From contig NC_057923.1 of assembly GCF_018873765.1 (NCBI RefSeq), positions 7,266,413-7,330,412 of the forward strand: a stretch of 64,000 bases of DNA, in the 5' to 3' direction. Each line of letters begins with the position of its first letter. Position 1 is the first letter of the stretch. The notes under the pieces are model-generated. The model did no database searches, was not told the DNA's origin, and saw only the letters and a program-made list of their open reading frames with translations. Origin of the DNA: Telopea speciosissima (lineage: Eukaryota; Streptophyta; Magnoliopsida; Proteales; Proteaceae). Below, piece after piece: positions 2,889 to 32,707 of this stretch. The position numbers were made by a program, and so were the translations under genes.

Positions 2889-2923
<35 letters not shown>

Positions 2924-3793: not shown

Positions 3794-6700
3794 ATGCGGA
3801 ATATGAAGCTCCATGACGCTCCCAAGCCTGAGACCACCAAACAGAAGGAGCGTCACATCGTTACCTGGACCCAAGAGGTTCCATCTTACTTCCTCTGTTT
3901 CATATTTCTTCTCATTTTCATTTACTTAAGCTCCTTTCTGTATCTAACATGGAATATCTCAAATGCAGGAAGATGATATTCTTCGGGAGCAAATTAGCCT
4001 CAATGGAACTGAAAAGTAAGAGTTTTGCTTCATCTATACTCTGTCTCTCTACTTACTGGTTTAAGAACAATACTCTGTTCTCTGTTTTATGGATGGTTCG
4101 AGCTCAAATCTTTGGTGGTCGCGTTCTTGAGTGCAGCTGGACGATAATTGCAGCTAAATTCAAGGATAAAACAACCAGACAATGCAGAAGAAGGTCGTTC
4201 ATTCATAGGAGATATTTCATTTACCTTTGGGTCCTCGCCATTTTCTGTGACTCTGTTTATGCTGATTCCGTTATAAACAATGATTCTACAGATGGTACAC
4301 TTACTTGAATTCAGAATGCAAGAAAGGAGGATGGTCACCAGAAGAAGACATGATCTTATGCGAGGTAATTGAGGCTCTAACCTTTGCTTATAGGAACTTC
4401 TATACAAGGTCACTAATATCACAGCTCATAAAAATACCTTATTCCTGTGAGTTTCAGAACTCCAGAATATGATTCTTCTCTTCTAGGGTGAGATTTCATT
4501 TCTATAAGGGTGATGCCCAAATGTGATCCATGTGTGGCAACTTTTTGCATGGAGTAACTTGTTTGGTGGGTTGACAAGGTTTTTTAACCTTTTGGGGACT
4601 CCTCCAGTGAAATGGGTTGCTCTGTTCCGTCCAACTGATTGTTCCAAATAGTTTGTAAACCATTAAACGTGGTTGTGATCTCATTGCCTAGAAATGATCT
4701 GCAGGCCCAGAAGATATTCGGTAATAGATGGACTGAAATAGCCAAGGTGGTTTCAGGAAGGTAATTAAGCCCCCTTTGTGGTATTCGATATATAATTCCT
4801 TGTTTCTTTCACTACTAACGTATTAGATGACTGACTCTGAATCTCTGCTAATGCAGAACGGATAATGCAGTGAAAAACCGATTCGCCACCTTGTGCAAGA
4901 AAAGAGCGAAATGTGAAGCCTTATCGAAGGAGAACAACATTTCATGTATAAACCCAAACAATAAGAGAGTAATACTTCAAAATGGGTTTGTAATGAGTGA
5001 TTCATCTGATTCCACTCCACCCCTTAAGAAGATGAGGTACAGTGGAGAAACTTTTCCATGTGTATGTCAACAAGAAAACCATGCTTTACATATGACACTC
5101 TTAAGTTGTTATGTAGGACCCAAATCTTGGATCTGACCAAAAACTGTATCACCAAAGGAGGAACTTTGAGGGAATGCTCAGAGAATCACCCGCTGAGAGC
5201 TCCCTTTGCAGTATTGCTTCAAAACTCCCACAATGTTGGCACCTTGGCAGCTCAGCAGCAAGTCAGCAACAACACCAAAGTAGCCTTTAATGATGGTAAA
5301 CCACCTCTCAAACCTGTGTTTGTATAAGTACAAAAGAAAAAGATATTTCTGTAATATACATTATAAATCTTACATGGAAGGCTGAAACATTGAACGAGAA
5401 TGGACATATATGCTTTGAAAATCACAGTGAAAGAGTATAACATTAGTGGAAGACAGGTTCACCTGACCAGGCCAAAGTTTCCCCACTGTATTTTTTGTTT
5501 TTTTTTTGGGTCCATTATCCCTTCCTTTCTTGTTATCTTCTTCCTCTTAATAGAACACTATCATTTCCTTCAAGAGAAGTTAACACAATTTCCCCTTCTG
5601 ATCAATGGCAGCTGAAGATAACAAGGTCCGGGGAACATTTCTTAAAAGGGATGATCCAAAGGTCACTGCTTTGATGCAGCAAGCAGAACTGCTCAGCTCG
5701 CTTGCACTGAAAGTTAACACAGATAACACCAACCAGAGTCTTGAAAATGCCTGGAAGGTGAGGAAAATAATCGTACTGGCTCAGATTTCCAAGCGGAGGT
5801 ACTGGATGTAATTCTTTAGTAATGGTCTACCAACAGTCCACTACCACATCTAGTCCATGCATCACATATCTAATACAGTGGCCAGGAAATTCTAAGGCCC
5901 AAAGATCAATATATTTGACTAGGCCTTGGACCTCTTGGGCTTAGAGGTCAACAGTCCAAGCAGTCAAATGGCAAAAGTCTAAGCTAAATGAACAGGAAAA
6001 TCGTGCTTGGAAGTCCCTGGACTGAGCAATTCTAAGCAGACCAACCTAGGGTTGGCTCAGGAGAAAAAGAAAAACTACAGATAGCAAAATTTTGACTGTC
6101 CAATTTAACCGATTCTGTCCAACCCAGCAAAAAGCAAGTTTGAACAAGAATACTATTGAATTATTTATCCACCCGTGTCCCCCTTTAGATAGTCCGCCAT
6201 GTTAGAGCTCCTGTTTGATATACCTATTGTTTCCTCCCTTTCCTACAAGGTCGGCCCTTTAGAGGAAACGGTTTCTACATGGTATCAGAGCAGGCAGGGG
6301 TCACGGTATCGAGTCCCCTTGGGAGCGGGCAGGTGTTGAATTATTTTTCCACCCGTGTCCCCCTTTGGATAGTCCGCCGTGTTAGAGCTCCTGTTTGATA
6401 TACATATTGTTTCCTCCCTTTCCTACAAGGTCGGCCTTTTAGAGGAATCGGTTTCTACAAATACCTTTTCCAAATAAACCAGGTCAAGTTTAGTTAGACA
6501 ATACGGATATATGACACTGTTTGTCTGAATTTGAAATACTAACATATGAAACATAATAAGATTATATAGGTTAAAATATGGGTATTATCTTGATAAGAGT
6601 TTTGTCATTTGACCATCAGGTTTTGAGTTCAAATATACTCAATAACAATAGTTTGTACAATAAATTATATAAATACGATATTTGAGGAAAACCATGTCAG

Positions 6701-9700
6701 ATATGGACATCCCACAATGAAACCAGGGTCAGACATGGGTATTTGTCCTTGTTTGCAATCTGTATTAGAAACCGGTCCGGATTGGACAAATAGGCAACCA
6801 GCCATACATGATGCATCATTTGACCTGGACCAAGATTAGTCAGATTAGGGAAGGTAATGAATAGGTTAAATGAGAACCATGTCCCAGCCAGCCCCCTCAA
6901 GACTAGGTTACAGTTTGGATTGGACTTTAAAAAAATAAAACAATGGGCCACACCCTGCCAGACTTCATGTCAGCCTGCAGAGGCCCTGATGCAGTACAGG
7001 TATGCACATAGGAGGAAGAAGGGAGGCTAGCAGACCATGGTTAAGTTCCTAGGCCAGAACCAGGCCCATAACAGTGGCCACAGTTCTGGTTCTGGTCCTT
7101 AAGGTCAGGCTGTGTGGACCAAACTTGGGTCTCGCATGGCCTAGTGTAGGTCCCATGAGGACAGATGGCATGGGAAAGAATGGGAGCAGCCAAGATCTTT
7201 TTGGAGTTACTAATTACTTGGTTTCTGTTTTCAGGTAATAGCTACTTAGTGAATATATTAAGCTAAGTAGGAGTTTCTATTTTGGATTACTCTATATCTA
7301 TTGTAATTGTTTTCTTTTTTTTATTTGCTTTGCAGCCAAGCTACTCCCCACGCTCAAGGGCGTTTCTTTTCCTTGTAATGCTCCATTGCTTATTATAAAT
7401 AAAGAGGTAGGGCTACTACAGCCCACGATTTTGGTTGTTTGATAATTCTTGCGCCATGAGAGGATGTGCTGTGGTGAATCAGTCACAGCCAAGGTGGTGA
7501 AGCCTTGGAGGGAGGGTGGTGGAGCCCAACCACAGGCCATAGGTGGTGACGCCTATTGGTCATGTCTTCTTCTTCCTTTCTTCCTCTTCTCCTTGTTCTT
7601 TCTTCCATTGATTCTGTCAGATTTTTTCCAGAAGGTGAATCACTTCTACCGAGGCCATCCTCTAAGTGTTCTCTCACTTTTATTTTGAATATTTTTTATT
7701 ATTCTACCATTCCTATTTTCCATAAAAGTTTCTGCAGGTTTCCAGTAAAGAACCATCCCCCACAGTTTCTGTTTCTTTACTTTCTTTTCCTATTTTAGTT
7801 GTCATCTAACATCCCTCGATTCCTAGGGTTGCTAGCTTTCTTCTCTGTCTTTTCCATCCATCCCCTATTGTTCTAACAATTTTTTTGTCACTATTTACAT
7901 ACTGATCTGCAGGTCAGAGTTCTCTGTTCTGTTGTTTTTTCTAATTCTGGCTGCAGGGATTCAAACTGACATTCTAGTCAATCCAGACCTTGGATCGACC
8001 TCATCTTTTGATATAGCCTTCTTCCCTGCTAGTACTATATCTGATCATAATTTGAGGATCATCAGACCCATCTGACCGTTGAATCCTGGATTATTTGACT
8101 TTCTCTATTCTGCCATATTGTGTACTTACTTGGATTGCTGTGTTTCTGTCCTGTGGGTATTGTGTTCTATAATCTTATCTTATCCACCCAAGAGCATATC
8201 AGGCCCTGTCCTGTTGCCTTATGAAATGGGTAAGCCCCCCATATCTGTTTCATGGGGTGGAGTGGGTCCTGGTTGAGCAATGTTTTAAATGGGTCGGGTC
8301 GAATATTGGATAAACTCCACCCCCATTGCTGCCCCTGGTCAGAACTTTTGCAAATTCCCTGCCCAACACCCAGTCCAACTATTCCACTAGGACACAGTTA
8401 AAAATCAACCTGTTAACTCTAATCATCATACCTAATACATTTACACCATCAATAACCTGAGTTGATTTCAGGGAAATTTGCAAAAAGGTGGCAATGATCA
8501 ATTGATCATTACGTAGGTTGACTTGATTATGATATCTTCAAGCTAGAAATATAGAATGACCAAAACAACCCATAGATCTATGTGCCACATGTGTTGGTAG
8601 GCTGTTGGTCGAGTGTTCTCAGGGTCTGTGGAATGAGTATCTTAGTTTTGCAGTTTCCTTGTAAAGAACATCAACAAGATGGAACCAGAATTTGCAAGTT
8701 CCCTAATATCATTTTTTAATTTTCAGGAACTGCAAGATTTCTTAAACCAAAACAAAGATAGCAATCTGCTAAACTACAGAATCTCAGAAACGGATTTTCT
8801 ACTCGATGATTACAGAGACTTGGCAGGGGAATTAGCCCGCGGTAATATGGGAAGTCAACCATCATGGAGGTAGTAATAGCATAAAAATATGCTGATGTAA
8901 GTAGCTTATGACAATTTATGAGGTCTAACTGGTTTCAATTATGTAGGCAACACGATTTATATGAGGAGTCTCCAGGCAGTTCTGGATACAGCACAGGATC
9001 AACTCTCCAGTCCCATACAGCAGCTGATAAAACAGAACATCAAGCTGAAGTATGTTCACTGCACCAGGATAATATTTGTACGCAACAGATAGCTCATACA
9101 AGAGAAGTACAGAATGATCTTAGTGGTTGTGATGATGGGATTTCTATAAGCAATACTCAAGGTAATCAAATATCACATACCTATGAATTTGTTTATTATT
9201 CTGATCCTCTGTTGGATTTCACAAGAGGTTATCTGGTTTGTTATGGAAAAGTTAAATCTATCCCATTGCAGCAGAAATCTTCCTCTCTCATGAAGACTCA
9301 AAAGAAAACGGAGTCATGCATGTCTTGTCAAACACAGAGTTCAGTTCCCCTCTCCAAGTAACTCCACTGTTCCGATCATTGGCACCAGAGATCCTGAGCC
9401 CCAAATTCTCAGAAAGTGTAAGTTTTTTGGATACCAAGTCTTCTAACCATCATGTTATCAGCTTTCTAGGGTTATGATCTCTAATAAAATATTTACAAAC
9501 TAGGTCCATGTTACAATTCCTGCCCACTTAAAAGTGGTGAGGAGAAAAAGAGAAAACCTGATAGTTTACTTTTATAATAACATCACTAAACAGTCCATGC
9601 ATCTTCATGCTATGAAGCTTCATTGCATGGCATGAGACTTGATAGGAGAAACGAACAACACAGAATCTCAAGAAATGTAGTCAGTGTTATAGAAAGCAAA

Positions 9701-10326
9701 ACCTTCACTAGAAGCTCCATTAATGTTGATACCTAGCCATGAGAGTTTTTGAAATTGTGTGGCCCTATACAAATTTAGAGTCACCTAATGTTTTGTGGCC
9801 ACATAATTCAAAATAAAGTTCTCAGAGAACTAGAACTAAAAAAGATAATCTTGTGAACCTGTTTAAATTAAGAATTTATTTATTATGTTTAACAGTGTGA
9901 AATTTCAAACCCCCCCTCCCCCACGAAAAAGAAGAAAGAGGATTTTAAACAACTTATGAAGCTGTATTAATGTTGATACCTAATAGACGTTGATGATTTG
10001 AAAGCTTATGACCTGCTATGAACTTTTCCATCTACTTTGCCAATATTTCGAGAGGTTCTACAGCCTCACCTCACTACTTGTCTTTTAAGACACTGCAAAT
10101 AAGTGGAATTTTTTTCCATTAATGTTAGAACGCCATGATTTCAAGGTTAAAATTTTTCCTTCTAATATTAGAATTATGATGCAAGACTGACTATGTTTTT
10201 GAACACATTATGCAGGAGAGGAACTTCCTACTGAAGACACTTGGTTTGGGTTCCCCACCTCCTCACCATAGCACCAACCCATCCCAACCACCTCCTTGCA
10301 GAAGGGCACTCCTCCATAGTCTCTGA
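3794..10326 (+). CDS. FLP: R2R3-MYB transcription factor, FOUR LIPS/MYB88 type (copy A, intact)
   Basis: Twelve exons: 3794-3877, 3969-4015, 4137-4193, 4292-4364, 4705-4760, 4857-5036, 5117-5295, 5612-5757, 8727-8869, 8947-9161, 9272-9417, 10216-10326. They total 1437 nt, one open frame of 478 aa, with GT-AG junctions throughout. The R2 repeat (about residues 19-68) has W25, W45 and W64; R3 (about 69-120) has W77, W96 and F115. Distinctive FLP/MYB88 signatures are ERHIVTW before R2, KNRF.TLCKKRAK after R3, LMQQAELLSSLALKVN, and a C-terminal VTPLFRSL...SERNFLLKTLG block ending in LLHSL. The family acts in the nucleus, limiting divisions of guard mother cells in the stomatal lineage and acting in root gravitropism. 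The frame depends on an 80-nt intron at 5037-5116. Length is close to Arabidopsis MYB88. FLP versus MYB88 orthology cannot be separated by eye. Confidence 0.92.
6149..6464 (+). mobile_element. Miniature LTR retrotransposon (TRIM/SMART-like), 306 bp
   Basis: Complete element inside MYB intron 8. The 5' LTR is 6154-6279 (126 bp) and the 3' LTR 6334-6459 (126 bp), with seven differences between them by eye. The 54-bp interior starts with TGGTATCAGAGC at 6280-6291, the primer-binding site for initiator tRNA-Met, and ends in a purine-rich GGGAGCGGGCAGG. The 3' LTR is TG...CA; the 5' LTR begins TA. A 5-bp TSD, AATAC, flanks it at 6149-6153 and 6460-6464. Copy B of the duplication has a single AATAC at this point, an intact empty site (near 23310). 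No coding capacity. Confidence 0.95.
7140..8290 (+). repeat. Dispersed LTR-like repeat in MYB intron 8
   Basis: This part of intron 8 contains an AATAAA-type signal followed by CCCACGATTTTGG and a G-rich GCCAAGGTGGTGAAGCCTTGG block. A similar arrangement recurs at about 61640-62390 outside the gene, so it looks like an old repeat, possibly LTR-derived, rather than unique intron sequence. It is present in both duplication copies (B about 24000-25130) and therefore predates the duplication. Boundaries are not resolved. Confidence 0.4.
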
Positions 10327-14450: not shown

Positions 14451-14497
14451 ATATAGTTTTCACACCAAATAGGTTACAAGGTGTACAAAAACTTAGA

Positions 14498-14696: not shown

Positions 14697-15489
14697 GTTA
14701 TTTGTCTATCACAATGTTCTTTCTTCTTTCTTTGAAATACATTTTTTCACTTTAAATTTATCATCATCCATGTATCATTTTCAAGAGTATTGAATACACA
14801 AATCCATATTTTTGAAAATGGAGATAAAGAAAGGGGAAAAAGTTGTGCACAATGCCAGATCAAAAATGAATTTCACACTCCTCACTTATCATTGTTCATG
14901 TGAGAAGATGAAATGTCATAAATGCCCCTCTCCTTTTGTCAAATTCCAAAAGGTTTAGGTTTCCTCATTCGCCTAAAACTGCATTCAGGCAATATAGGGA
15001 GCCCTCTCCCTAAAGAAAGAGACGAGGAAGGGCTGTTTTTTCATTTCTAATAAGGGAAAGTCATTCCGAACAAGCGGCATGCTCTACTAGCCTACTCCCA
15101 TAATTTTTCATTAATTCTTTTGACAAGAGAAAAATGAATAGAACAATTTTAATTGTAAGGGGCATATGCTATACCCACTTGCTCTAAAACTCTCTCTCTC
15201 AAAAATATTGAGAAAAAAATCACTTACTTTAAATCCATACAAAATTCAAAAAGCATACACTGATATCATTCTACTTACAGAACTTTTTTTTTTGGGTAAA
15301 TACTTACAGAGATGAGATGGAGAGAAAGGAAGAGGGAATCAAAATCTTATTCTTTTAAACAATGAGTCTTCTCCTGCCCATAAATCTGGAAAATGTATCC
15401 AATACATTTTGAGCTCTAATCTCCATGTTTCCAAAACATAATCAGTCCTTTGGATATGACTTACTTATTCCACCTTTGTAGTCCCATTT

Positions 15490-15560
15490 TGTCTCGTAGA
15501 TTCATGTAGCCGACCGCATTAAGTTGGAATAAGACTAAGATGATGTTGTTGTTGCTGAAC
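15490..15560 (-). repeat. Dispersed plant repeat overlapping the CSLD stop codon
   Basis: The plus strand has GTAGCCGACC then ATTAAGTTGGAATAAG then a GTT-repeat. I recognise this as a motif scattered through many plant genomes. It covers the last few CSLD codons and the 3' UTR of both copies, so the encoded Thr/Ser-rich tail and stop codon appear to come from the repeat. Recognition is from memory. Confidence 0.55.
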
Positions 15561-18500
15561 CCCCCGTACTAGCATTAGTTGAATTATCATCTGGTGGACT
15601 AATTGTAATCCAAAGCAAAGAGACAGTAATGGCCACAAGCCCTGACCAAACATATATAATTGTAGGCATCCTACCTTTTCTGCCCATCAACCCTTTGCAA
15701 AAAGGCCACATGTGACATAACACCCATGCACTAAAGAAGACTCCACCAATGAGCTTGTTCCATTGTGGAAGCACACTGTAGAGAGTCCTTGTAGATGCAA
15801 TAAAAATAGCTACAAGGTTAACTACAATTATGGTGAGTGGCATTATGAAGAGACTGGTCCATTTCACAACATATAGGTCAGCATATATGTCTTCTTCATC
15901 TTCTGCTGTTGACTTAGATGTCAAGGTGAATGAAATCTCAATTCCTGCAAGTACCTTAAGGAGACCTTGTAGTACAGCAGCTAGATGTGCACTTGAGCCA
16001 CCAATGACCCAAAACTGTTCATTACGCCACCAATCTTCAAGAGAAACCCCGGACCATTTGACTTCAAGAAGGGCTAGACAGCAGAGTGTGATGGTGATGG
16101 CGAGAAGGTATAAAAGAAAGGCAACATTAAGGGTTTCGACGATAAAGTGTCCAGAGAAGAGAGAGAGTGCAGGAATAAAGCAATAGACAACAAGGAAGAT
16201 GGAAGTAAAAGGATAAACTCCGACATTGAAGTACGCAACACGTTGTAAGAACTTAAGACGTGGGCTAGCAAGGATGGGATTGTTTCTTGAGAAGAAGATC
16301 TCCACTGATCCTGTAGCCCATCGAAGGACTTGGTGTAATCGATCAGTGAGATTGATGGGTGCAGTTCCACGAAAAGCATCGCGTTTTGTGACACAGTAAA
16401 CTGATCGCCACCCACGATTATGCATTCGGTATCCAGTCACCACGTCTTCTGTCACTGATCCATAAATCCAACCAATCCTATCACCCCATTCGGTGTTGTC
16501 CTCGTACCTACGTTGTGTTCATGAAAACAAGATATGAAATAGACGTAACAGACCCACACCCAATAGACAGTAAAATCCATATTAGGAACTGATCCAAAAA
16601 CTCCTATATTACAAAAAACACCAATAGCAAATGTCAAACACTAAAAATTTACCAGCATGAGATGACAGCAACAGCTTCAGCAACAGTTTGTGCATCAAGT
16701 GGTGGACGTGGCACAAGCAAAGCACCGGGAGGCCTTCCATTTTTCACACTAAAGTGATCAGCAAGTGGACGCCCTTGAAATTCAGCAACAGCTATAGAGT
16801 CAGTGAAAATAGTAGAATTCCCAAACTTCTTAGGCAAGTTTAGGTCTGGATGTGCTGTTAGTGGCTGTGAATCTGATTCTTCCTCCTCTGATTGCAGCTG
16901 AATTTGTGCGGCTGGACTCTTGTGCTGTCCAAACATACCTGTGAGAGAGAGACAGAGAGAATTTGCTCAAATGCATTGTGGGTTTTTTTTTTGTTCTTGT
17001 ATTTGATTTATGGGAACAATGGGAGTACAGACGGAAACATCAATAGGAACAAAATTTCCACCTTTCCTGAGAGGTGGAGTTGTCATTTCCCCATTCTGTG
17101 TGTGTGTGTGGGCGCAGGGGCTACAATGCTCCCGATTTGAGTCCATTTTCCCTTGATTTATATATTCATAAAAGGGAAGCAGTTTTTTTTATCTATGCCA
17201 GCACTCACATGTGTCTATCTTTCTCTTCTTTAAAACAAAAAGGCAGATGTGTCTTTTCACATAAGAATAAGAGAGAGAAATTTATGGGAATGTTGATGTG
17301 GGCCACACTGCTGGACAGAGATCTTTTTCCCTTTATAAAATGGAAGAAAAGAACACACCTGAATACTCATTAGCTCGGGGAGGATGAAACCCATAAAGCG
17401 CAAATCGTCGAAATAGACAACCAGTCCCAACATAAACTGGACCTTGGAGACCGTCTAGGGCTCGCATGTTCCCATCAAAGAAAACCGTATTATGATTTGC
17501 GTATCGATCCGACGGATCAATCCCTTCGAATCGTTGTGGGAATTGGATGTAGCAGATACGATCTCCTCCACGGTCCATCATGAAACACATCCCCTCACGT
17601 AATGCGAGTGAGTTATAGAAGTAATGGTCACAATCAAGATTCAAAATGAATGGACCGTTGGATAGGATTGCTGAGGCTCTAACCATGGCATTCATGGCTC
17701 CAGCCTTCTTGTTATGATCATATCCTTTCCTCTTCTCACGTGACACGTAAGCAAACATTGGGACCCGCACGTCAACCCCAGTGAAGTCTAGGGTCTTCTC
17801 ATCTGGGTGACCATACACTGGATCAGGCTCAGGAACCTTACTCATAACCTGTATGATCCCAGCGTGATCTCCTTTTTTATGATCTGGTGCAGGATCAAAC
17901 CACGTGCCCGGCCAGTGGGTCCCATCGGCCATCCACGTGGCCTTCTGGATATCCACGGCGCCTTCCGCTGGAACTTCACCCCCATTATGATCACGTGCTT
18001 CTTGTCTCGCCTTACGTTGTTCTCTCTTGTTGTACGTTTCACATCGTTTCTTGATCACATCAGGTAAACCGTTGATGCGAACCTTGAACTCGTCATACTC
18101 ACGCTTGATCCAACGACGGTCCTTGACGAAATCTGGTCGTTTCTTGTTCTTTGTGGGGTCTCTCTTGATGTTAAAGTAGCTGTCAGGGTTACGTGGTTCG
18201 ATATTATGCTTTCGACAGAATGGGACCCATAGATGTGCGAAGTTTACAGCTTCTGCCATGGCTTCGAAGGTGAGGATGGCTGCTCCATCGTCAGATATAT
18301 AAGCAGAGACCTTGTCAACAGGATAATCAACGGCTAGGATTGAGAGCATTGTGTTGGCTGTGACGAGTGGGGGTTCTTTATCTGGGTCGGCGGTGGAGAC
18401 GAAGACATCTACACCAGGGAGGTCAGACCGGCCGTGTGGGTTATTTGGGGAAGGGGTTTCGAATTTGTCACGAAGAGCAGCAAGGTCGGTAGACCGGTTA

Positions 18501-19225
18501 ATCGGGTTGAGCTTAGGGAGCTGATCCAGAAGCCATGAAAAAGCGAACCACATCTCACACGCAATTGACATACCCCAAAGCCACATTGCGTCTGAGTTCG
18601 GGTTTCGAACCCGCCAAGTACAGAAAAGCCCGAGTGCAATCAGGCGCAACACCACTAAGAACCTGTAAGGGCTGAGAATAGAAGAGGGAATATGAATCTT
18701 CCTTGTTAACGGTTTCCATGGCTTATCGATGAAATCAGAAACGTTCACACCTCCATCGGGCCCACCATAGTCATCAGGATCTGTCCATACAACATTCCCT
18801 ATACCGTACGTTCCCTTAGTCTCGAACAACCAACGGTTATGATCAAAGTCTCCTGTTTGACTCCTCAACAGCATCGATTTGCTCGATTTCATCACCGACA
18901 TCCTCCGGTCCATCTTTGCCTCTCCTCCGTTACTATTCCCATCACCGACCCTTCTTGTAATTCCAACCCGTGAACCCGGTCCGGAGGGAGATGGACCAGA
19001 AGCCGAGCCGGCACCCATGGGTTGGTTATCAGGGGTTGGAGGCATGAGAACCGTGTAATCGATATAGTCGCTTGAACCACTAAATTCTCCCGGAATATCC
19101 AAATCCTCGTCTCTTGACAGGCTGACGACTCTTCCGGAAGATGTTCGTCGGGCGAATTTCACGGCCGTCGGCGGCCGGCTGGAGGAGGAGGAAGATAATT
19201 TTGTGGGGCTGTTGGAAGATGCCAT
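15535..19225 (-). CDS. CSLD: Cellulose synthase-like protein D (intact)
   Basis: Three exons on the minus strand: 19225-17359, 16938-16653, 16507-15535, totalling 3126 nt, 1041 aa. I chose the ATG at 19225 because MASSNSP starts the CSLD-like N-terminus; an in-frame ATG lies 7 codons upstream. Two N-terminal membrane segments (about 182-205 and 213-233) precede the GT2 catalytic loop, with six predicted C-terminal segments after it. Catalytic motifs are all present: D312-D313-G, D531-C-D533, T737-E-D739 and Q777-[19 protein letters not shown] and the PRAN...KKFGNST region are CSLD-specific. CSLD proteins make beta-1,4-linked wall glucan (or mannan) in tip-growing and dividing cells. Unusually, the N-terminal Cys-rich RING-like domain of most CSLDs is absent: about 34 residues and no cysteines lie between PPTPDNQP and the MDRRMSV block. 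The C-terminus also differs from the usual FQFP-type ending. The D subgroup is not assigned. Confidence 0.93.
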
Positions 19226-19905
19226 TTCTCGATGTTTGATGAACAAACAGACCCTTTTGTTTATTGTTTGCCCTTCGAGAATCGAGAGAGAGAGAGAGGA
19301 TCACCTACAGATATCCATTGGGTGTCTGATTCCATGAGAGAGAGATTAGAATGGGAAGTAGTTCCCAGAAGACAAACGGAGATGGAAATGGAGATGAAAA
19401 CAAGGAACAACAGGGAGTTTAAGGGGTGAGCAGCGGAGTTTGTGGGATTTGTGGGTTTGGGAGGTAATGGAGAGAAGAACCTCTCCATGGGAGGGAGCGA
19501 GAATATGGTTGGTTGAGAAAGCAGAAGAGAGTCCGAGAGAAGCGGGGAGAGTGTATTGGGTTTCTAATTTTGGATTGGTGGGGAGTGGATTTCGGTGATA
19601 ATCAAAGCGCCCATTTTGGCGTTGGATCTACAGTGGAGAGAGACGGTATGGGTTTTTTTTTTAGAGCCTGTAAATCGGAAGTCGAAACACAAAAATCGCC
19701 GCTAGTTATTAAATTCCGCATACTCTTGCGCGTTTCGTCGAGTTGATGAAGCCCATAAAAGAAAAGAATGTTTTTTTCCTTATCTTTACTATTTACACTC
19801 CATGACTACCAAGATATCGAACTCAGGGAAAGAAAGAGAGAGAGAGAGGAGCGGAAATAAAATCATAAGACTTTGGGATGGATGGAATCACAGAGAAAAG
19901 CACTG

Positions 19906-19943
<38 letters not shown>

Positions 19944-20821
19944 AAAAGTGAAGGTCACGAACAACGTCATCTCCGAAATCATTCCACAGAAAGAGAGAGT
20001 CTGTCTCTCTCTCTCTGCTGTGAGTGGTGAGTGGTGCTCATAGTCTCCTCCACCATTAATATCGTCGCGTGGATTTCAGCGTTTTCAAACCGCCATTCAT
20101 AGGCGCGTAAAAAAGCATCTCATGAAGAAAGAAAAAGGGGGAAAAATGGTAATTCAATGGACTGATCAATCTCTACAACTAGAAGTCTGAGATTCCAATA
20201 CTATACGATCTTCTCTACAGAATCGCGGTTTTGTTCTTTTTATGCAAACTCTTTTCCAGCTCGATGTCCTCGGATCCACTGTCTCTCCGGATTTAGATAC
20301 GTAGGTAGGCCTCTAATTTTCCTTAAGAAATCATCTTGTATCAGTGCTGGATGGGTCTATGTCCATTACTGTAGGGACATTTCCTGATGATTTTAGGCAT
20401 TCAAAGTGGAAATTCCTCTGCTTTTTGATCCGTAAGGAAGGAACGATTTCTAAGTTTTTATTGTTGTACTTGATTCAGTATTTGATCGTTTTTCCATGTT
20501 CTACCTGTAGTTCTCCTTTCTATAAGAATATTGAGAATAGTTTGGATTGTAATGATTTTCACAATTTTTTAGGGAAATTGAGATCAAAGGTGATTGGAAA
20601 GTTAGAATCCTATGCAATTCGGTGTTTGAGACTGAGTGCTTGAGAATTTTGTTGGAGCCGCTGTTCCAGTTTTGAAAGGAACAGTTCCCTGTAAAGGCGA
20701 ACATTCGGAGGCGAACCGCTCCCTTACCCCCCTTTATATATCATACAAAAAGCCTTCGCTTTAACATGCGGGTAGCTCTTGATAAAGGAAGAAGGAACGT
20801 GGAAAGACAACGAAGGAAACC
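19226..20821. promoter_or_regulatory. Divergent upstream region between CSLD (-) and MYB copy B (+)
   Basis: CSLD and the second MYB copy are head to head, separated by 1.6 kb. Sequence 19226-19701 is the native CSLD upstream region. At 19702 the tandem junction brings in the duplicated MYB leader, with its GA microsatellite at about 19910-19938. GA/CT tracts occur on both sides. No specific motif could be assigned. Confidence 0.5.
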
Positions 20822-23800
20822 ATGCGGAATATGAAGCTCCATGACGCTCCCAAGCCTGAGACCACCAAACGGAAGGAGCGTCACATCGTTACCTGGTCCC
20901 AAGAGGTTCCATCTTACTTCCTCTGTTTCATATTTATTCTCATTTTCATTTACATAAGCCCCTCTCTGTATCTAACATGGAATATCTCAAATGTAGGAAG
21001 ATGATATTCTTCGGGAGCAAATTAGCCTCAATGGAACTGAAAAGTAAGAGTTTTCCTTCATCTCTACTCTGTCTCGCTACTTGTTGGTTTAAGAACAATA
21101 CTTTGTTTTATGGATGGTTTGATCTCAAATCTTTGGTGGTCACGTTCTTGAGTGCAGCTGGACGATTATTGCAGCTAAATTCAAGGATAAAACAACCAGA
21201 CAGTGCAGAAGAAGGTTGTTCATTCATAAGAGATATTTCATTTACCTTTGGGAAGAGTTGTTTCTACATATATATTTTTCCTCCCAATTTTCTGTGACTC
21301 TGTTTATGCTGATTCAGTTATAAACAATGATTCCACAGATGGTACACTTACTTGAATTCAGATTGCAAGAAAGGAGGATGGTCACCAGAAGAAGACATGA
21401 TCTTATGCGAGGTAATTGATGCTCTAACCTTTGCTATAGGAACTTCTATGCAAGGTCACTAACATCAGAGCTCATAAAAATACCTTATTCCTGTGAGTTT
21501 CAAAACTCCAAAATATGATTCTTCTCTTCTCGAGTTAGATTTCATTTCTACAAGGGTGATGCCCAAATGTGATCCATGTGTGGCAACTTTTTGCATGGAG
21601 TCATTTGTTTGGTTTGAAATTATTTTACTCTGTTTTATAGCTTTTTTTAGTTTTATTTTGTGGGTTGACAAGTTTTTTTTTTAACCTTTTGGGGACTCCT
21701 CCAGTGAATTGGGTTGCTCTGTTCCTTTCAACTGATTGGTCCACATAGTTTGTAAACCATTAAACGTGGTTGTGATCTCATTGCCTAGAAATGATCTGCA
21801 GGCTCAGAAGATATTCGGTAACAGATGGACTGAAATAGCCAAGGTGGTTTCAGGAAGGTAAATAAGCTCCTTTTGTAGTATTCAATAATTCCTTATTTCT
21901 CAGATAAATCCCCACACATTACTTATTCACTACTAACCATTAGATGACTGACTCCGAATCTCTGCTAATGCAGATCGGATAATGCAGTGAAAAACCGATT
22001 CACCACCTTGTGCAAGAAGAGAGCAAAATGTGAAGCCTTATCGAAGGAGATCAACATTTCATGTATAAACCCAAACAATAAGAGAGTAATACTTCAAAAT
22101 GGGGTTGTAATGAGTGATTCATCTGATTCCACTCCACCCCTTAAGAAGATGAAGTACAGTGGAGAAACTTTTTCATGTGTATGGCAACAAGAAAGCCATG
22201 CTTTACATATGACACTCTTAAGTTGTGATGTAGGACCCAAATCTTGAATCTCACCAAAACCTGTACCACCAAAGGAGGAACTCATAAGGGAATGTGCAGA
22301 GAATCACCAGCTGAGACTTCCCTTCGCAGTATTGGTTCAAAACCTCCATAATGTTGGCAACTTGTCAGCTCAGCAACAAGTCAGCAACAACACCAAAGTA
22401 GCCTTTAATGATGGTAAACCACCTCTCAAACCTGTATTTTTATAAGTAAAAAAGAAAAAGATATTTCTGTAATATACATTATAAATCTTACATGGAAGGC
22501 TGAAACATTGAACAGAGAATGGACATGAACCTGTCTTTACCTGGATACTCTTATTTTCAAAGTAGACTTCACAGTGAACCATGTCCTTGCCATATATGGG
22601 TAACATTAGTGGGAAGAGTAGCTTGTATGTTACGCTGACCAGGCCAAAGTTTCCCCACTGTATGTTTTGTCCATTATCCCTTCCTTTCTTGTTATCATCT
22701 TCCTCTTAATAGAACACCATCATTTCCTTCAAGAGAAGTTAACACAATTTTCCCTTCTGATCAATGGCAGCTGAAGATAACAAGGTCCGGGGAACATTTC
22801 TTAAAAGGGATGATCCAAAGGTCACTGCTTTGATGCAGCAAGCGGAACTGCTCAGCTCGCTTGCACTGAAAGTTAACACAGATAACACCAACCAGAGTCT
22901 TGAAAATGCCTGGAAGGTAAGGAAAATAATCGTACTTGCTCAGATTTCCAAGCGGAGGTACTGGATGTAATTCTTTAGTAATGGTCTACCAACAGTCCAC
23001 CACATCTAGTCCATGCATCACATATCTACTGCAGTGGCCCTTACTAGGAAATTCCAAGGCCCAAAGATCAATATATTTGACCAGGCCTTGGACCTCTAGT
23101 GCTTAGAAGTCAACGGTCCAAACAGTCAGACGGCAAAAGTCTAAGCTAAATGAACAAGACCATCGTGCTTGGAAGTCCCTGGACTGAGCAATTCGAAGCA
23201 GACCAACCTAGGGTTGGCTCAGGAGAAAAAGAAAAACTACAGATAGCAAAATTTTGACTGCCCAATTTAACCGATTCTGTCCAACCCAGCAAAAAGCAGG
23301 TTCGAACAAGAATACCTTTTCCAAATAAACCAGGTCAAGTTTAGTTAGACAATACGGATATATGACATAGTTTGTCTGAATTTTAAATACTAACATATGA
23401 AACATAATAAGATTATATAAGTGAAAATATGTGTATTATCTTGATAAGAGTTTTGTCATTTGACCATAGGTTTTGAGTTCAAATATACTCAATAACAATA
23501 TTTTGTACAATAAATTATATAAATACGATATTTGAGGAAAACCATGTCAGATATGGACATCCCACAATGAAACCAGGGTCAGACATGGGTATTTGTCCTT
23601 GTTTGCAAGGTGTTTGCAATCTGTATTAGAAACTGGTCCGGGTTGGACAAATAGGCAACCAGCCATACATGACATATTATTTGACCTGGAGCAAGATTAG
23701 TAAGGTAATGAATAGGTTAAATGAGAACCATGTCCCAGCCAGCCCCCTCAAGACTAGGTTACAGTTTGGATTGGACTTTAAAAAAAAACCAATGGGCCAC

Positions 23801-26800
23801 ACCCTGCCAGACCTCATGTCAGCCTGCAGAGGCCCTGGTGCAGTACAGGTATGCACATAGGAGGAAGAAGGGAGGCTAGCAGACCATGGTTAAGTTCCTA
23901 GGCCAGAACCAGGCCCATAACAGTGGCCACAGTCTGGTTCTGGTCCTTAAGCAGGCCAGCTTCTAGGCTAGGCTGTGTGGACAAGACTTGGGTCTCGCAT
24001 GGCCTAGTGTAAGCCCCATGAGCACAGATGGCATGGGAAAGAATGGGAGCTGCCAAGATCTTTTGGAGTTACTAATTACTTGGTTTCTGTTTTCAGGTAA
24101 TAGCTACTTAGTGAATAAGTTAAGCCAAGTAGGAGTTCCTATTGTGGATTACTTTCTATATCTATTGTAATTGTTTCCTTTTTTTATTTGCTTTGCAGCC
24201 AAGCTACTCCCCATGCTCAAGGGCGTTTCTTTTCCTTGTAATGCTCCATTGCTTATTATAAATAAAGAGGTAGGGCTACTACAGCCCACGATTTTGGTTG
24301 TTTGATAATTCTTGCTCCATGAGAGGATGTGCTGTGGTGAATCAGTCACAACCAAGGTGGTGATACCTTGGAGGGAGGGTGGTGGAGCCCAACCAAAGGC
24401 CATAGGTGGTGACGCCTATTGGTCATGTCTTCTTCTTCCTTTCTTCCTCTTCTCCTTGTTCTTTCTTCCATTGATTCTGTCATATTTTTTCCACAAGGTA
24501 AACCACTTCTACCGAGGTCATCCTCTAAGTGTTCTCTCACTTTTATTTTGAATATTTTTTATTATTCTACCACTCCTATTTTCCGTAAAAGTTTCTGTTT
24601 CTGTACTTTCTTTTCCTATTTTAGTTGTCATCTAACATCCATCGATTCCTAGGGTTGTTAGCTTTCTTCTTCTGTCTTTTCCATCCATCCCCTATTGTTC
24701 TAACAAGTTTTGTTGTCATTGTTTACATACTGATCTGCAGGTCAGAGTTGTCTGTTCTGTTGTTTTTTCTAATTCAGGCTGCAGGGATTCAAACTGACAT
24801 TCTAGTCAATCCAGATCTTGGATCGACCTCATCTTTTGATATGGTCTTCTACCCTGCTAGTACTATATCTGATCATAATTTGAGGATCATCAGACCCATC
24901 TGACCGTTGAATCCTGGATTGTTTGACTTGCTCTATTCTGCCATATTGTGTACTTACTTGGTTTGCTGTGTTTCTGTCCTGTGGGTATTGTGTTCTATAA
25001 TCTTATCTTATCCACCCAAGAGCACATCAGGCCCTGTCCTGTTGCCTTATGAAATGGGTAAGCCCCATATCTGTTTCTTGGGGTGGAGTGGGTCCTTGTT
25101 GAACAATCTTTTAAATGGGTCGGGTTGAATATTGGATAAACTCCACCCCCATTGCTGCCCCTGGTCAGAACTTTTGCAAACCCCCAGTCCAACTGTTCCA
25201 CTAGGACAGTGTTAAAAATCAACCTGTTAACTCTAATCAGCATACCTAATACAACCTGAGGTGATTTCAGGAAAATTTGCAAAAAGGTGGCAATGATCAA
25301 TTGATCATTAAGTAGGTTGACTTGATTATGATATCTTCAAACTAGAAATATAGAATGACCAAAACAACCCATAGATCTATGTGCTACATGTGATGGTAGG
25401 CTGTTGGTAGAGTGTTCTCAGGGTCTGTGAAATGAGTATCTTAGTTTTGCAGTTTCCTTGTAAAGAACATCAACAAGATGGAACCAGAATTTGCAAGTTC
25501 CCTAATATCATTTTTTTAATTTTCAGGAACTGCAAGATTTCTTAAACCAAAACAAAGATAGCAATCTGCTAAACTACAGAATCTCAGAAACGGATTTTCT
25601 ACTCGATGATTACAGAGACTTGGCAGAGGAATTAGCCTGTGGCAATATGGGAAGTCAGCCATCAAGGAGGTAGTAATAGCATAAAAATATGCTGATGTAA
25701 GTAGCTTTTGACAATTTATGAGGTCTAACTGGTTTAGTTTCGATTATGTAGGCAACACGATTTATATGAGGAGTCTCCAGGCAGTTCTGGGTACAGCACA
25801 GGATCAACTCTCCAGTCCCATACAGCAGCTGATAAAACAGAACATCAAGCTGAAGTATGTTCACTGCACCAGGATAATAGTTGTACGCAACAGAGAGCTC
25901 ATACAAGAGAAGTACAGAATGATCTTAGTGGTTGTGATGATGGGATTTCTATAAGCAATACTCAAGGTAATCAAATATCACATACCTATGAATTTGTTTA
26001 TTATTCTGATACTCTGTTGGATTTTACAAGAGGTTATCTGGTTCGTTGTTGTGGAAAAGTTAAATCTATCCCATTGCAGCAGAAATCTTACGTTCTCATG
26101 AAGAATCAAAAGAAAACGGAGTCATGCATGCCTTGTCAAACACAGAGTTCAGTTCCCCTCTCCAAGTAACTCCATTATTCCGATCATTGGCACCAAAGAT
26201 CCCGAGCCCCAAATTCTCAGAAAGTGTAAGTTTTTTGGATACTAAGTCTTCTAACCATCATGTTATCAGCTTTCTAGGGTTATGATCTCTAATAAAATAT
26301 TTACAAACTAGGTCCATGTTACAATTCCTGCCCACTTAAAAGTGGTGACGAGAAAAAGAGAAAACCTGATAGTTTACTTTTATAATAACATCACTAAACA
26401 GTCCATGCATCTTCATGCTATGAAGCTTCATTGCGAGGTAGGAGACTTGATAGGAGAAACGAACAGCACAGAATCTCAAGATATGTAGTTAGTGATATAG
26501 AAAGCAAAACCTTCACTAGAAGCTCCATTAATGTTGATACCTAACCATGAGAGTTTTTGAAATTGTATGGCCCTGTACAAATTTAGAGTCACCTAATGTT
26601 TTGAGGCCATATAATTCAAAATAAAGTTCTCAGAGAACTAGAACTTAAAAATATAATCTTGTGAACCTGTTTAAATTAAGAATTTATTTATAATGTTTAA
26701 CAGTGTGAAATTCAAACCCCCTCCCCTCCCCCGCGAAAAAGAAGAAAGAGGATTTTAAACAACTTATGAAGCTCTATTAATGTTGATACCAAATAGACGT

Positions 26801-27134
26801 TGATGATTTGAGAGCTTACAACCTGCTATGAACTTTTCCATCTACTTTGCCAACATTTCTAGAGGTCCTACTGCCCCACCTCACTACTTGCCTTTTAAGA
26901 CACTGCAAATAAGTGGAATTTTTTTCATTTATGTTAGAACACCATGATTTCAAGGTTAAAATTTTCCTTCTAATATTAGAATTATGATGCAAGACTGACT
27001 ACGTTTTTTAACACATTATGCAGGAGAGGAACTTCCTACTGAAGACACTTGGTTTGGATTCCCCACCTCCTCACCATAGCACCAACCTGTCCCAACCACC
27101 CCCTTGCAGAACGGCACTCCTCCCTAGTCTCTGA
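20822..27134 (+). pseudogene. FLP: FLP/MYB88-type MYB, copy B, frameshifted (R2R3 part intact)
   Basis: All twelve exons align with copy A: 20822-20905, 20997-21043, 21158-21214, 21339-21411, 21802-21857, 21974-22153, 22234-22413, 22771-22916, 25527-25669, 25752-25966, 26080-26225, 27024-27134. Every exon has the same length except exon 7, which is 180 nt instead of 179. A single extra base near 22281-22283 (ACTCATAAGG against ACTTTGAGG) shifts the frame, giving a stop at 22349-22351 and a 204-residue product. That product keeps both MYB repeats but loses the conserved C-terminal half. Other changes are few: T to S after R3 exon 5, a W to R in exon 9, and LLHSL to LLPSL at the end. The donor of intron 6 is AA|GTACAG rather than AG|GTACAG. 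It may be a young pseudogene or still be expressed as a truncated MYB. Confidence 0.85.
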
Positions 27135-28246
27135 CCAACTGCTCCAAATTTCATAGTGAATTTGTGCCCTAGACTATTCTCAGAATTTTAGCATGTCATG
27201 AGGTTTTGACTTCATTCTTCTCCTCCCCAGTTCCTTTTCATTACACTTCAAAAGTGTGTTTGAGAATGTGCTAGTACATCCTCTATGCATCCCAACATAC
27301 CTGCCCAAGCTTACAGTTACACTAGCAGAGCTCAATACTTGCATTGAACTTCCCCATTGTTTGTTGAGTTGCGCCATTTTTCCGTTCTTTCTTCTCAAAA
27401 GATGTGACCTGGTCATTGTTTTTCAGCCCCAGTTTTTGGTATTTAATTTGTCACTTGTACAGAATCTGCAGTACAAAACCCTAGTTCCTTTCAGAGTGTA
27501 ATTAAACATCGGCAGTTTGGCATCTGTCATATAAATAGCAGGAAAAAAGAGCCAAGGAGGATCAATCAGTTGTACGGGAGACCTATAGATTTGATTTTGG
27601 TGTGGATAGGGTATAGAATAAGAGTTTTGTTCTTTTTGAGTTTTCCTTACGAATGTAATGTATTGAATGTAAACCTTCAAAGGTTTGAGAGCATAATGTG
27701 TTATGGGCTTTGTATGTTCAAATATTTTTCTGTTATCTGTCTTCTATTTCTGGGATTCTATTTCATAAGTAGGGAAACAATTATGAACCAAAAAAGAAAA
27801 TCGGAGAAAGAAAACACTGAGAAATCACGAAGTAAAATGAATGAAATAACAGAATACCTAAATTGAGAAAAAGGAAAATTACCAGCAGAAATGTATTATG
27901 AATTTCTCTCTTCCATCTTCGAAGAAAGAAACAAATAGGAGAAAGAGAAGGGAAAGGTGGTTAGTTCAATTACAGCTACTGTGGACTTACGACCATGGTT
28001 TTGTTGGGAAATATCTATCTCCATCTCACCCTTCCTTCCCGCTGTTTTCCTTGCGGTGATTGCTGATGGAGAACAGTTCTGAGAAATCTTCAATTAAGGT
28101 TCGATCATTCAAGGAAGGAAGGCGACAAGTGTAATTATGAAGAACGCAAAAGCTTTAGGTGAAAAGTTCGAGTTTTCATTGTAATGGTGGAGTCCTGGGA
28201 GGGAAGCCAACACAAAATAATGCGCAAATTGAAGTTTTAACTACGG
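27135..28246 (+). other. 3' flank of MYB copy B
   Basis: Duplicate of 10327-11440. No independent gene is supported. Confidence 0.5.
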
Positions 28247-29925
28247 CTCTGTTTGGTTGCAAAAGCAATGAAAATTTGTTGATGTAAAGTGAAATTTATT
28301 TTTCAAGAGAAATAATTCTAGGTGTTTGGTTGCAAGGGGATTGTTTTTCCCATTGGGAATAAATTTCATTTTTCAAATAACATTGCAATTTTTATTTCCC
28401 GACAAAAATGCAAGTAAATTAAAAACCCAGGGATTCTCGACTTTGGGGTTTTTTTCTCGATTGAAATATCAAATACTTTGTAGAACAGCTGAAGGCGATC
28501 GTTATCTCTCTCTTGAGATCGAAGCTCTGAGCAAGGTTGGAAGATTGAGCATGCGTTGGTTCTCTCTCCAAGAAGCTCGGAAGCACCAGTTCTCTTTCTG
28601 TGTGAGAAGCTTGGAAGCTCTGAGCAAGGCTGGTTCTCTATCTAAGAAGCTTGGTAGCTTTGATTTGATCGAAAGTTCATCAACTCTGCTCTGATCAGGT
28701 TCATCAACTCTACTCTGCTTTGCATTTTAATGATTTGAATATAAATAAAATGAATGGAATTTTTTAATGATTTGAATATAAATAAAATGAATCGAATTTG
28801 CTGAGTGAAAAAACCCTAAGTTCCCCCTGTCGTCTCTTTGATGCAAGCAAACAAAGATGCAAGTCATGCAACCTCCTCCTTATTTTGTGTCTGGCGCAAC
28901 GCCCTTCTCTTCCTTGGCTTTGGCGATGGTGGTAGCAGCTGCTCTTACAACCTCCTCCTTCTTCTTCTTCTTCATCTTTTGCTCCTTGAACACCATCGCA
29001 ACCACTCATTTTGCGAGTGGTATTTCATCATAATCCGTCTGATCTCATCCCATAAATATTCAGAGATATCGGTTCAGAATTGGTAACTTCAGTTAGAACG
29101 ATAGATCCAATCCTTGGGAAGATTCAGATTGTAACTTCTAAGGTTTGTTAACGATGGAACGAACCCCTACTACTACTGCAACTCAAATATGGTATTTGAC
29201 TGGTTGTATTTCAAATTTATCTAGTCAAACTTGGTTGCATGCTGTGTTGTATATATTCCTTTAGCTTCCTAGTTCTCTAGTCAAATTTCTCTGTATCTGA
29301 TCAGTGTTCATAATCTCAATATAGTTAAATGTTGATGGAGATTATTTGGTATGTCAAAGAATCTGTAACTCTTTATGGTGTTTCTCTATATTCAATGAGC
29401 AGTGATATTAGGTATTAGTTAGGAGCTTAAGTAGAAATAAATGAGATGCTTGTGTGGTGCACCCAAAAGTGACAGAATTGCTATGTATATTTTCTCAATG
29501 ATTCCCCCCTCCCCTTCTCTACAACTATTGAAAACAGAGTTAACTATATAGCATGGATTTGTAGTCGTTTTGTGTCTAAAGTTGAAAACGGAGTTAACTA
29601 TATAACATTCCCACTTGGCAACCAATGACATTTTAGCTGTTACAGCTTTTTTAGTACCTAATGGCAAAGCAATTTATTAGATTAGTATTACATCTAATAA
29701 ATTCTTTATTTTTCTTTTTTCTTATTGAATGCATCAAGTAAGATTAAATTAGATCCCATTGTACATAGTCATGGGAGAAGCTGCACTTCATTATCATCTT
29801 ATTTCAACTTCTGGAACCCTGTGCCTAGATGGTGAACCTTAATTGGGTCACTACAGATGACGAATGTAAGACATTGGGTCACTGTGTCTAGTTTTTATTT
29901 AGATGGATTCAAGAGTTTCTTTTTT
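28247..29925. mobile_element. Insertion present only in duplication copy B
   Basis: About 1.7 kb with no counterpart in copy A. It starts with GGCTCTGTTTGGTTGC, a type of end common among plant non-autonomous DNA elements, and a similar GTGTTTGGTTGC recurs at about 28321. No matching inverted end or TSD was found at the right border. A short Lys/Glu-rich minus-strand frame near 28850-29000 could be a captured exon fragment, but I do not recognise it. Confidence 0.5.
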
Positions 29926-30383
29926 CTGCGGAAATTACACTCCCCCCCTGTACTTTCAATGAACTAGCATCCGCATGGCTCGTGAACTATTGCAACACAA
30001 CCCATTGAAGGAAATTCATCTTCTCAATGGGTCTCAATGTTTGCAAAATTAAAAAAAGAAAAAATGTCTGCAAACTGAAGATGCTTTTTAGCTTTTTATC
30101 AACTACGATGGCTTAATTGCTCAGTGATTGGAAGGAATTTACACTCAGTGGAGTAATGTTTTGAAAGACTGGGACTGTCCCTAATAATGCTTTGAAAGCC
30201 CTCTTCTCCAAATGCATAAAATGGAAAATTAGATCAAACCAAACTTTAAAATGGCCAAAAAGAAATTGAGGCTACCATTTTTCTCTACATCGTGTCAGAT
30301 TTCGTTTCCAACACTGTAGAACTAGATTCCAACATTTTTGGAAGAAAAGAGCTTGTAACCATCCCCATTATATCCTCAACACA

Positions 30384-30590
30384 AGGCACTGGTGGCGGAA
30401 GTTTTCACTTTTCATCATGTCAATATCTGGGCACAACTTCATGGTGTGCCATTGGAACTCCATTCTATGAATATTTTCTGCCACCTTACAACCAAGATTG
30501 GTCGGTCCTCCAAAGCAAATCATAGAGATTCAATCTTCCACAGATGGGCAATGGAAGATTTACCATCAACATATGCAAGCTTAGATTGAA
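30384..30590 (+). pseudogene. LINE ORF1 fragment (DUF4283-like), copy B
   Basis: Duplicate of the fragment at 14245-14450, with HVNIWAQLHGVPLE preserved. No functional LINE is attached. Confidence 0.55.
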
Positions 30591-30637
30591 ATATGGTTTT
30601 CACACCAAATAGGTTACAAGGTGTACAAAAACTTAGA

Positions 30638-30838
30638 AACTAAACAAGGATCTTTATCCCCTGTGATTCCCTGCCCTGTACAATTCTTGCAATCCCTCTC
30701 ATAGGGGGGGCAGAAATGACCACTCTACCCCCTGCCCGAACACACTGCCCAGGTGGGATCCACTCCCCCCCTCTTATTAGAGGCACTAGTGAACTGTACC
30801 GGACAGGAAATCGCAGTAGATATTTTTCCAACTAAACA
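30638..30838. mobile_element. MITE, 9-bp TSD family (copy B)
   Basis: Body about 30647-30829, the duplicated counterpart of 14507-14687. Its flanks are perfect: AACTAAACA at 30638-30646 and again at 30830-30838. This confirms the 9-bp target-site duplication seen with one mismatch in copy A. Confidence 0.85.
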
Positions 30839-31436
30839 GTTATTTGTCTATCACAATGTTCTTTCTTCTTTCTTTGAAATACATTTTTTCACTTTAAATT
30901 TATCATCATCCATGTATCATTTTCACAAGTATTGAATACACAAATCCATATTTTAGAAAATGGAGATAAAGAAAGGGGAAAAAATTGGGCACAACGCTAG
31001 ATCAAAAATGAAATTTCACACTCCTCACTTATCATTGTTCATGTGAGGAGGTGATATGTCATAAATGCCCCCCTTTTTTTGTCAAATTCCAAAAGGGTCA
31101 TTTCCCCTCAGTCGCCTAAAACTACATTCAGGCGGCATAGGAAACCCTCTTCCTAAAGAAAGAGAGGAAAAAGGGCTGTTTTTTCATTTCTAGTAGGGGA
31201 AAGTCACTCCGAACAAGCGGCATGGTCTACTATCCTACTCTCATAATTTTTTCATTAATTCTTTTGACCAGAGAAAAATGAATAGAACAATTTTGTCAGG
31301 GGCATATGCTATACCCACTTGCTCTGAAACTCTCTCTCAAAAATATTGAGAAAAAAATCATTTACTTTAAATCCACACAAAATTCAAAAAGCATACAATG
31401 ATATCATTCTACTTACAGAGCTTCTTCTTTTATTCT

Positions 31437-31752
31437 GGGTTTTTGTCAAATGCCCCCCTGAAAATGTCTATTTGTCCAAATGCCCCCTTACAACTTTTCT
31501 AATTGTAAATTCTCTCTATTTTAAACAAATTGTAGCATTTTGGTCCTGTCCGTTAATTTGGGACATTAGACGTTAGTTTTAGGGACTATAATGACCAAAA
31601 TGCCCTTGTGACAAAAACCGACCAAAATTAAAAAGTAAAGTGACCAAATTGTCCTCATTTTCCCCAAATGGTTTAGGGTTTGAAACTGAAAATTGAAAAA
31701 ACCCTAGATCTATCCAAAAACCCATTTTTAGGGGGGCATTTGACAAAAACCC
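31437..31752. mobile_element. MITE with perfect 22-bp terminal inverted repeats
   Basis: 316-bp element with ends that are exact inverted copies over 22 bp, starting GGGTTTTTGTCAAATG and followed by a C-run. It is absent from copy A at the same place (near 15290), where only a poly-T tract is seen. No coding capacity. The TSD is hidden in T-rich flanks. Confidence 0.8.
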
Positions 31753-32007
31753 TTTTTTTTTTTTTTGGGTAAATACTTACAGAGATGAGATGGAGAGAAA
31801 GGAAGAGGGAATCAAAATCTTATTCTTTTAAAAAATGAGTCTTCTCCTGCCCATAAATCTGGAAAATGTATCCAATACATTTTGAGCTCTAATCTCCATG
31901 TTTCCAAAACATAATCAGTCCTTTGGATATGACTTACTTATTCCACCTTTGTAGTCTCACTTTGTCTCGTAGATTCATGTAGTCGACCCCATTAAGTTGG
32001 AATAAGA

Positions 32008-32707
32008 CTAAGATGATGTTGTTGTTGCTGAACCCCCAGTACTAGCATTAGTTGAATTATCATCTGGTGGACTAATTGTAATCCAAAGCAAAGAGACAGT
32101 AATGACCACAAGCCCTGACCAAACATATATAATTGTAGGCATCCTACCTTTTCTGCCCATCAACCCTTTGCAAAAAGGCCACATGTGACATAACACCCAT
32201 GCACTAAAGAAGACTCCACCAATGAGCTTGTTCCATTGTGGAAGCACACTGTAGAGAGTCCTTGTAGATGCAATAAAAATAGCTACAAGGTTAACTACAA
32301 TTATGGTGAGTGGCATTATGAAGAGACTGGTCCATTTCACAACATATAGGTCAGCAAATATGTCTTCTTCATCTTCTGCAGTTGACTTATTAGATGTCAA
32401 GGTGAATGAAATCTCAATCCCTGCAAGTACCTTAAGGAGACCTTGTAGGACAGCAGCTAGATGTGCACTTGAGCCACCAATGACCCAAAACTGTTCATTA
32501 CGCCACCAATCTTCAAGAGAAACCCCGGACCATTTGACTTCAAGAAGGGCTAGACAGCAGAGTGTGATGGTGATGCCGAGAAGGCATAAGAGAAAGGCAA
32601 CATTAAGGGTTTCGATGATAAAGTGTCTGGAGAAGAGAGAGAGAATGCAGGAATAAAGCAATAGACAACAAGGAAGATGGAAGTAAAGGGATAAACTCCG
32701 ACATTGA
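32008..32707 (-). pseudogene. CSLD: Truncated CSLD, copy B
   Basis: Matches 15535-16229, the C-terminal part of CSLD exon 3, with nearly identical sequence through the QFWVIGG and last four membrane segments to the same stop. Exons 1 and 2 and the start of exon 3, including the TED and QVLRW motifs, are missing. A 2-base insertion in a GA run near 32640 shifts the frame relative to the intact copy. Upstream it runs into Gypsy RNase H sequence. It cannot encode a working synthase. Confidence 0.93.

Follow-up and report, generated by a model that had tools for sequence, protein, structure and literature searches.

Does a tandem copy of an FLP/MYB88-type gene whose reading frame is broken by one extra base still encode a short regulator of the stomatal lineage, or is it a gene in decay? 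The question is raised by a 64,000-nucleotide stretch of the Telopea speciosissima genome (the window, C8:7266413-7330412, whose internal positions are used below), taken from an assembly whose 1287 contigs total 822.9 Mb. On its forward strand the window carries an intact gene of 12 exons encoding 478 amino acids (copy A, 3794..10326) and a second copy, also of 12 exons (copy B, 20822..27134). We take both to be FLP/MYB88 genes, a name that rests on the label given in an earlier reading of the sequence alone and on Arabidopsis sequence rather than on a database match. That sequence-only reading left two interpretations of copy B side by side, a dominant-negative or dosage modifier and a silent young pseudogene, and the second is the better of the two. 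Copy B is probably a young unprocessed (duplicated) pseudogene of FLP/MYB88, early in its decay; it is most likely an ordinary pseudogene of this kind rather than a working mini-regulator.

Structure of the tandem copies and the extra base

A tandem duplication is evident from a self-BLAST of the window, in which 19702-32707 matches 2693-16229 in four long segments that are 90-98% identical. Each duplicated unit, the first running from 2693 to 16229 and the second (19702..32707) recorded without a strand, consists of an FLP/MYB88-type gene and cellulose-synthase gene sequence, and because each of the two genes sits within a duplicated unit, the likeness of copies A and B did not arise by chance. 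The shared sequence includes about 1.1 kb upstream of the two genes. Alignment to copy A, with GT-AG borders, places the exons of copy B (all on the forward strand) at 20822-20905, 20997-21043, 21158-21214, 21339-21411, 21802-21857, 21974-22153, 22234-22413, 22771-22916, 25527-25669, 25752-25966, 26080-26225 and 27024-27134. The claim that all exons but the seventh match copy A in length held up: 11 of the 12 lengths are equal, and exon 7 (22234..22413) has 180 nt in copy B and 179 in copy A. With its 12 exons and 11 GT-AG introns, copy B has kept its exon-intron structure and is not a retrocopy.

The frame of copy B, followed through the aligned exons, ends as had been proposed, at a TAA codon (22349..22351) reached after 204 codons, which leaves 62 nt of exon 7 beyond it. 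Pfam and the frame together show that both MYB repeats are whole and that the C-terminal half is lost. The Myb_DNA-binding profile finds two stretches in each of A and B, and the R2R3 repeats of copy B (approximately residues 25-121, their extent taken from a c-Myb alignment of copy A) are spread over exons 1-6 (20894..22019). The C-terminal half is encoded by exons 7-12, which lie past the stop in copy B.

A search for FLP proteins in the plant's own genome, in which 89 of 300 candidates were scored so that the copy count is a lower bound, recovered a third copy on another contig (copy C, C3:11164146-11169761, reverse strand), which has 12 exons and an uninterrupted frame. Two FLP frames therefore stay intact, those of A and C, and both retain the C-terminal half. 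In a three-way alignment, exon 7 of copy C has 173 nt, shares its phase with copy A and lacks the extra base, which sits about 50 nt into exon 7 of copy B. Since C has the phase of A and is without the base, the exon 7 frame of copy A is ancestral and the extra base is specific to copy B. The reverse, an ancestral frame in B and a broken copy A, had been suggested by a plausible read-through of intron 6 in copy B and is rejected on the same grounds.

The surroundings of copy C are shared with the window. The right side of the window (36.6-53.9 kb) matches contig C3 on the far side of copy C, and the 10-kb sequence that precedes the window aligns with C3 on the opposite side of it, save for two short out-of-order matches; of this common neighbourhood, the left part stays with copy A and the right part with copy B. 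Because copy C sits in a colinear block, we take it to be the homeologue of A and B from a whole-genome duplication. No match to cellulose synthase turned up at E 1e-5 across the C3 region 11142600-11192200 (less 99 bases). The tandem duplication is young relative to the A-C split: of 1668 intron sites (introns 7 and 8 excluded), 83 differ between A and B, as against 360 between A and C. Copies A and B were also considered as alleles misplaced in tandem, which is rejected because their introns and flanks differ at 291 of 6862 sites (4.2%), with 47 gaps, against a heterozygosity of 0.76% quoted for T. speciosissima (PMC13080361); moreover, the left neighbours in the C3 block match beside A and the right ones beside B.

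Direction of change and loss of constraint in copy B

With copy C as outgroup, direction was assigned at sites where A and B differ, using 57 of the 58 differences (one codon gapped in C was dropped). In exons 1-6, lineage A has no nonsynonymous (N) and 4 synonymous (S) changes and lineage B has 6N and 2S, with 2N not assigned; in exons 8-12 the counts are 3N and 6S for A and 11N and 2S for B, with 1N and 2S not assigned. Outside exon 7, lineage B thus has 17N:4S against 3N:10S in lineage A (Fisher p=0.0014; 3N and 2S not assigned). When 21 neutral changes were simulated outside exon 7, the means were 14.9N, 5.2S and 0.9 stops; for 8 neutral changes in exons 1-6 they were 5.7N, 1.8S and 0.4 stops. 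The comparison of the R2R3 exons with copy A, which the sequence-only reading had named as a check on its proposal, accordingly gives a neutral proportion for B (6N:2S, on 8 assigned changes only) and constraint for A (0N:4S). Exon 7 has a different pattern, with 9N and 4S in lineage A and 2N and 3S in lineage B.

A custom-written codon model that treats each branch separately, applied to 476 of the 478 codons of copy A, gapped ones being left out, points in the same direction. Over all codons, omega (dN/dS) was 0.256 for A, 1.048 for B and 0.397 for C; equality of A and B was rejected (p=0.039), B did not differ from 1 (p=0.93), and one common omega was not rejected (p=0.10). Leaving exon 7 out gave 0.077 for A, 2.414 for B and 0.375 for C, with p=0.0006 for equality of A and B and p=0.27 for B=1. 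In exons 1-6, omega was 0.019 in A and 2.53 in B, with equality rejected (p=0.022) and B=1 not rejected (p=0.52). Exon 7 alone, with too few changes to be decisive, gave 0.84 for A and 0.20 for B (A=B, p=0.25; B=1, p=0.12). Outside exon 7, lineage B therefore looks neutral, the MYB exons included, and lineage A looks constrained. Amino-acid constraint has been lost on the B branch, where omega does not differ from 1 and is 1.05 even with exon 7 included. It is this near-neutral pattern in both the MYB exons and the C-terminal exons of copy B, set against the constraint on A, that supports the pseudogene half of the earlier proposal. The cellulose-synthase copy in the same unit is likewise only a fragment, which supports decay.

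Several observations weigh against a simple, fully neutral pseudogene. The MYB repeats of copy B score slightly above those of A in Pfam (102.2 against 101.5 bits), and the three copies have GT-AG borders at all 33 of their introns, the 11 of B among them. Copy B has one frame lesion only, and no second one was found across the aligned exons. None of its approximately 26 lineage-specific substitutions created a stop codon, an outcome with a simulated neutral chance of 0.315. It has 1 indel where about 4.9 would be expected under neutrality (P=0.043), although this expectation is rough, being based on introns and flanks that contain simple repeats. Its exon 7 has changed less than that of A and is closer to C than that of A is. 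Finally, exon 7 was set aside only after the data had been seen, for which reason the figures are given both ways. Because of the single lesion, the few indels and the little-changed exon 7, constraint in copy B may have been lost gradually or late, unless these features are due to chance.

More puzzling than the decay of copy B is a divergent patch in the intact copy A, covering exon 7 and intron 7 (5117..5611, forward strand). With intron 8 not counted, lineage A has 26 substitutions at 414 sites in this patch and 47 at 2926 sites in the rest of the gene, about four times as many per site; lineage B has no such excess (9/414 vs 58/2926). In exon 7 alone, lineage A has 13 substitutions at 179 sites, whereas the remaining exons together have 13 at 1258 (p=3e-6), and intron 7 of copy A holds replaced stretches. 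Conversion of exon 7 of B from copy C was considered and rejected, since 20 of 173 sites there separate B from C, against 140 of 1258 in the remaining exons, which places the excess on the side of A. A local mutational or conversion event in copy A would be likelier than selection because intron 7 has the excess too. In intron 8 of copy A (6156-6459), a 124-bp repeat, 95% identical and with starts 180 bp apart, lies at a break in the A-B alignment.

Expected product of copy B and competing explanations

These results can be read as one history. Tandem duplication of a segment with FLP and cellulose-synthase sequence gave rise to copies A and B. The frame stayed open in A and in the homeologue C, whereas most of copy B ceased to be constrained at the amino-acid level, and the extra base in exon 7 now cuts its frame short after the MYB repeats. 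In plants, a stop codon more than about 50-55 nt upstream of an exon junction marks the mRNA for nonsense-mediated decay (NMD). Because the stop of copy B precedes the exon 7/8 junction by 62 nt and five introns follow it, NMD of its mRNA is predicted. If copy B is still transcribed, little or no 204-residue protein would be expected, since a stop upstream of five introns would send the message to decay, and copy B would presumably have no function.

Among the rival explanations, the one that fares best, though we consider it unlikely, is that the extra base is an assembly or polishing error, or private to the sequenced individual, and that copy B is untruncated in the plant. Single-base indel errors do occur in long reads, and copy B is without a second frame lesion; however, the site is not in a homopolymer, and the neutral N:S ratio of copy B is independent of the base, so that the copy would be unconstrained even without it.

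It is decidedly improbable that a 204-residue, R2R3-only protein from copy B competes with intact FLP (from A and C) at target promoters as a dominant-negative or dosage modifier. Such a competitor could draw on whole MYB repeats that score like those of A, on the 1.1 kb of common upstream sequence and on six exons without a lesion. However, those same exons show the neutral proportion of changes where A has none that are nonsynonymous, one change in B lies within the GRTDN motif of R3, a motif common to A, C and the c-Myb chain, and the position of the stop predicts NMD. Because the part that it needs shows no constraint and its message is predicted to decay, the dominant-negative interpretation put forward earlier is not supported. 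A more specific form of it is very unlikely: the proximal promoter common to A and B would drive transcription of copy B, the message would in part escape NMD, and the resulting 204-residue R2R3 protein would adjust the dosage of FLP in the stomatal lineage, with the C-terminal loss being too recent for selection on the MYB exons to be visible.

An adaptive phase, in which copy B acquired a new function before its frame was broken, has little probability as well. The point estimate of omega outside exon 7 (approximately 2.4) and the few indels and lack of a stop codon for the divergence of B would fit it, but omega does not differ significantly from 1, and the frame is now broken.

Least probable, and barely credible, is that alternative splicing at intron 6 and exon 7 restores the frame and gives a nearly full-length protein. 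An exon 7 boundary of this kind was looked for, as the sequence-only reading had named it as a refutation. In copy B, 67 GT-AG pairs that replace intron 6 keep the frame open, with others inside or across exon 7, and 3 of the 67 use the normal exon 6 donor, with acceptors at 22289, 22316 and 22385; all three acceptors score below every real acceptor in the 33 introns of the three copies. The exon 6 donor of copy B is weak (5.42, against 8.63 in A). A donor at 22229 that looks unused scores higher (6.43), but no frame-restoring acceptor available to it exceeds 0.6. Pairwise scoring was confined to replacements of intron 6 and took in 33 of the 67 pairs, which between them contain every donor and acceptor of the set; none had both sites within the range of the 33 real introns, from which the scoring matrix itself was built. 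Retention of intron 6 leads to a TGA stop, and skipping of exon 6, exon 7 or both leads to stops as well.

Surroundings of the copies and significance for FLP/MYB88 genes

Between copies A and B, on the reverse strand, lies a cellulose-synthase gene (15538..19228) that was recognized by the Pfam profile Cellulose_synt; the unit 1 sequence has two open frames, covering positions 1-301 and 422-717 of the 722 in the profile. Immediately upstream of 19702, copy B abuts the start region of this gene. In unit 2, only profile positions 509-717 of 722 were found by Pfam, in a C-terminal fragment adjoining copy B (32011..32707, reverse strand), which was delimited by self-BLAST, Pfam and reading by eye. 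Likeness to unit 1 stops at 32707, and beyond it lies sequence that, judged by eye, resembles the RNase H region of a retrotransposon.

Loose FLP fragments occur elsewhere in the genome. Two 5' fragments on other large contigs, comprising upstream sequence and exons 1-2 or 1-3, are 95% (L031, C1:81908000-81917900, at 3993-4857) and 92% (L032, C6:26464500-26474400, at 3972-4985) identical to copy A. Two fragments around exons 10-11, in L033 (C8:25369500-25379400, approximately 4867-5364) and L034 (C2:82838800-82848700, approximately 4605-5094), are closest to copy C (93% and 89%, respectively). Because the latter lie in a 1.5-kb stretch common to both loci, and about 220 bp further on in L033 recur in L034 and L031 (approximately 79%), capture of the exon 10-11 fragments by one family of mobile elements is suggested.

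According to a review, the R2R3-MYBs FLP and MYB88 are semi-redundant with FAMA when stomatal-lineage cells undergo their terminal symmetric division, and an interaction of RBR with FLP acts in keeping guard-cell identity (PMC8542704). OsFLP is described as a nuclear transcriptional activator (PMC9180394). The copy number of FLP/MYB88 varies among plants, with four copies reported in Kalanchoe laxiflora and two entries listed with an NNU prefix, taken here as Nelumbo (PMC6068134); an extra copy is therefore nothing unusual. A literature search for tandem, frameshifted, truncated, dominant-negative R2R3-MYBs found no papers, and none of the other titles and abstract openings listed dealt with a copy like B.

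The Telopea copies share the R2R3 repeats of FOUR LIPS/MYB124 and MYB88, proteins that limit the last division in the stomatal lineage. The coding frame is complete in A and C, while that of B ends in exon 7 and the rest of the protein is lost. Copy B resembles CAPRICE-type truncated or single-repeat MYB competitors in that it would have DNA-binding repeats without an effector half, but those competitors are selected, expressed genes, whereas its MYB exons show no constraint. It is closer to unprocessed pseudogenes from tandem duplication, with which it shares kept introns, a broken frame and neutral N:S outside exon 7, and from which it differs in having a single lesion so far. What had been speculated to be a stomatal regulator thus becomes a well-supported case of decay of a tandem duplicate, in which an intact homeologue gives the direction of most changes. 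If copy B is in fact expressed, it would offer a natural test of FLP dosage and of competition for DNA binding.
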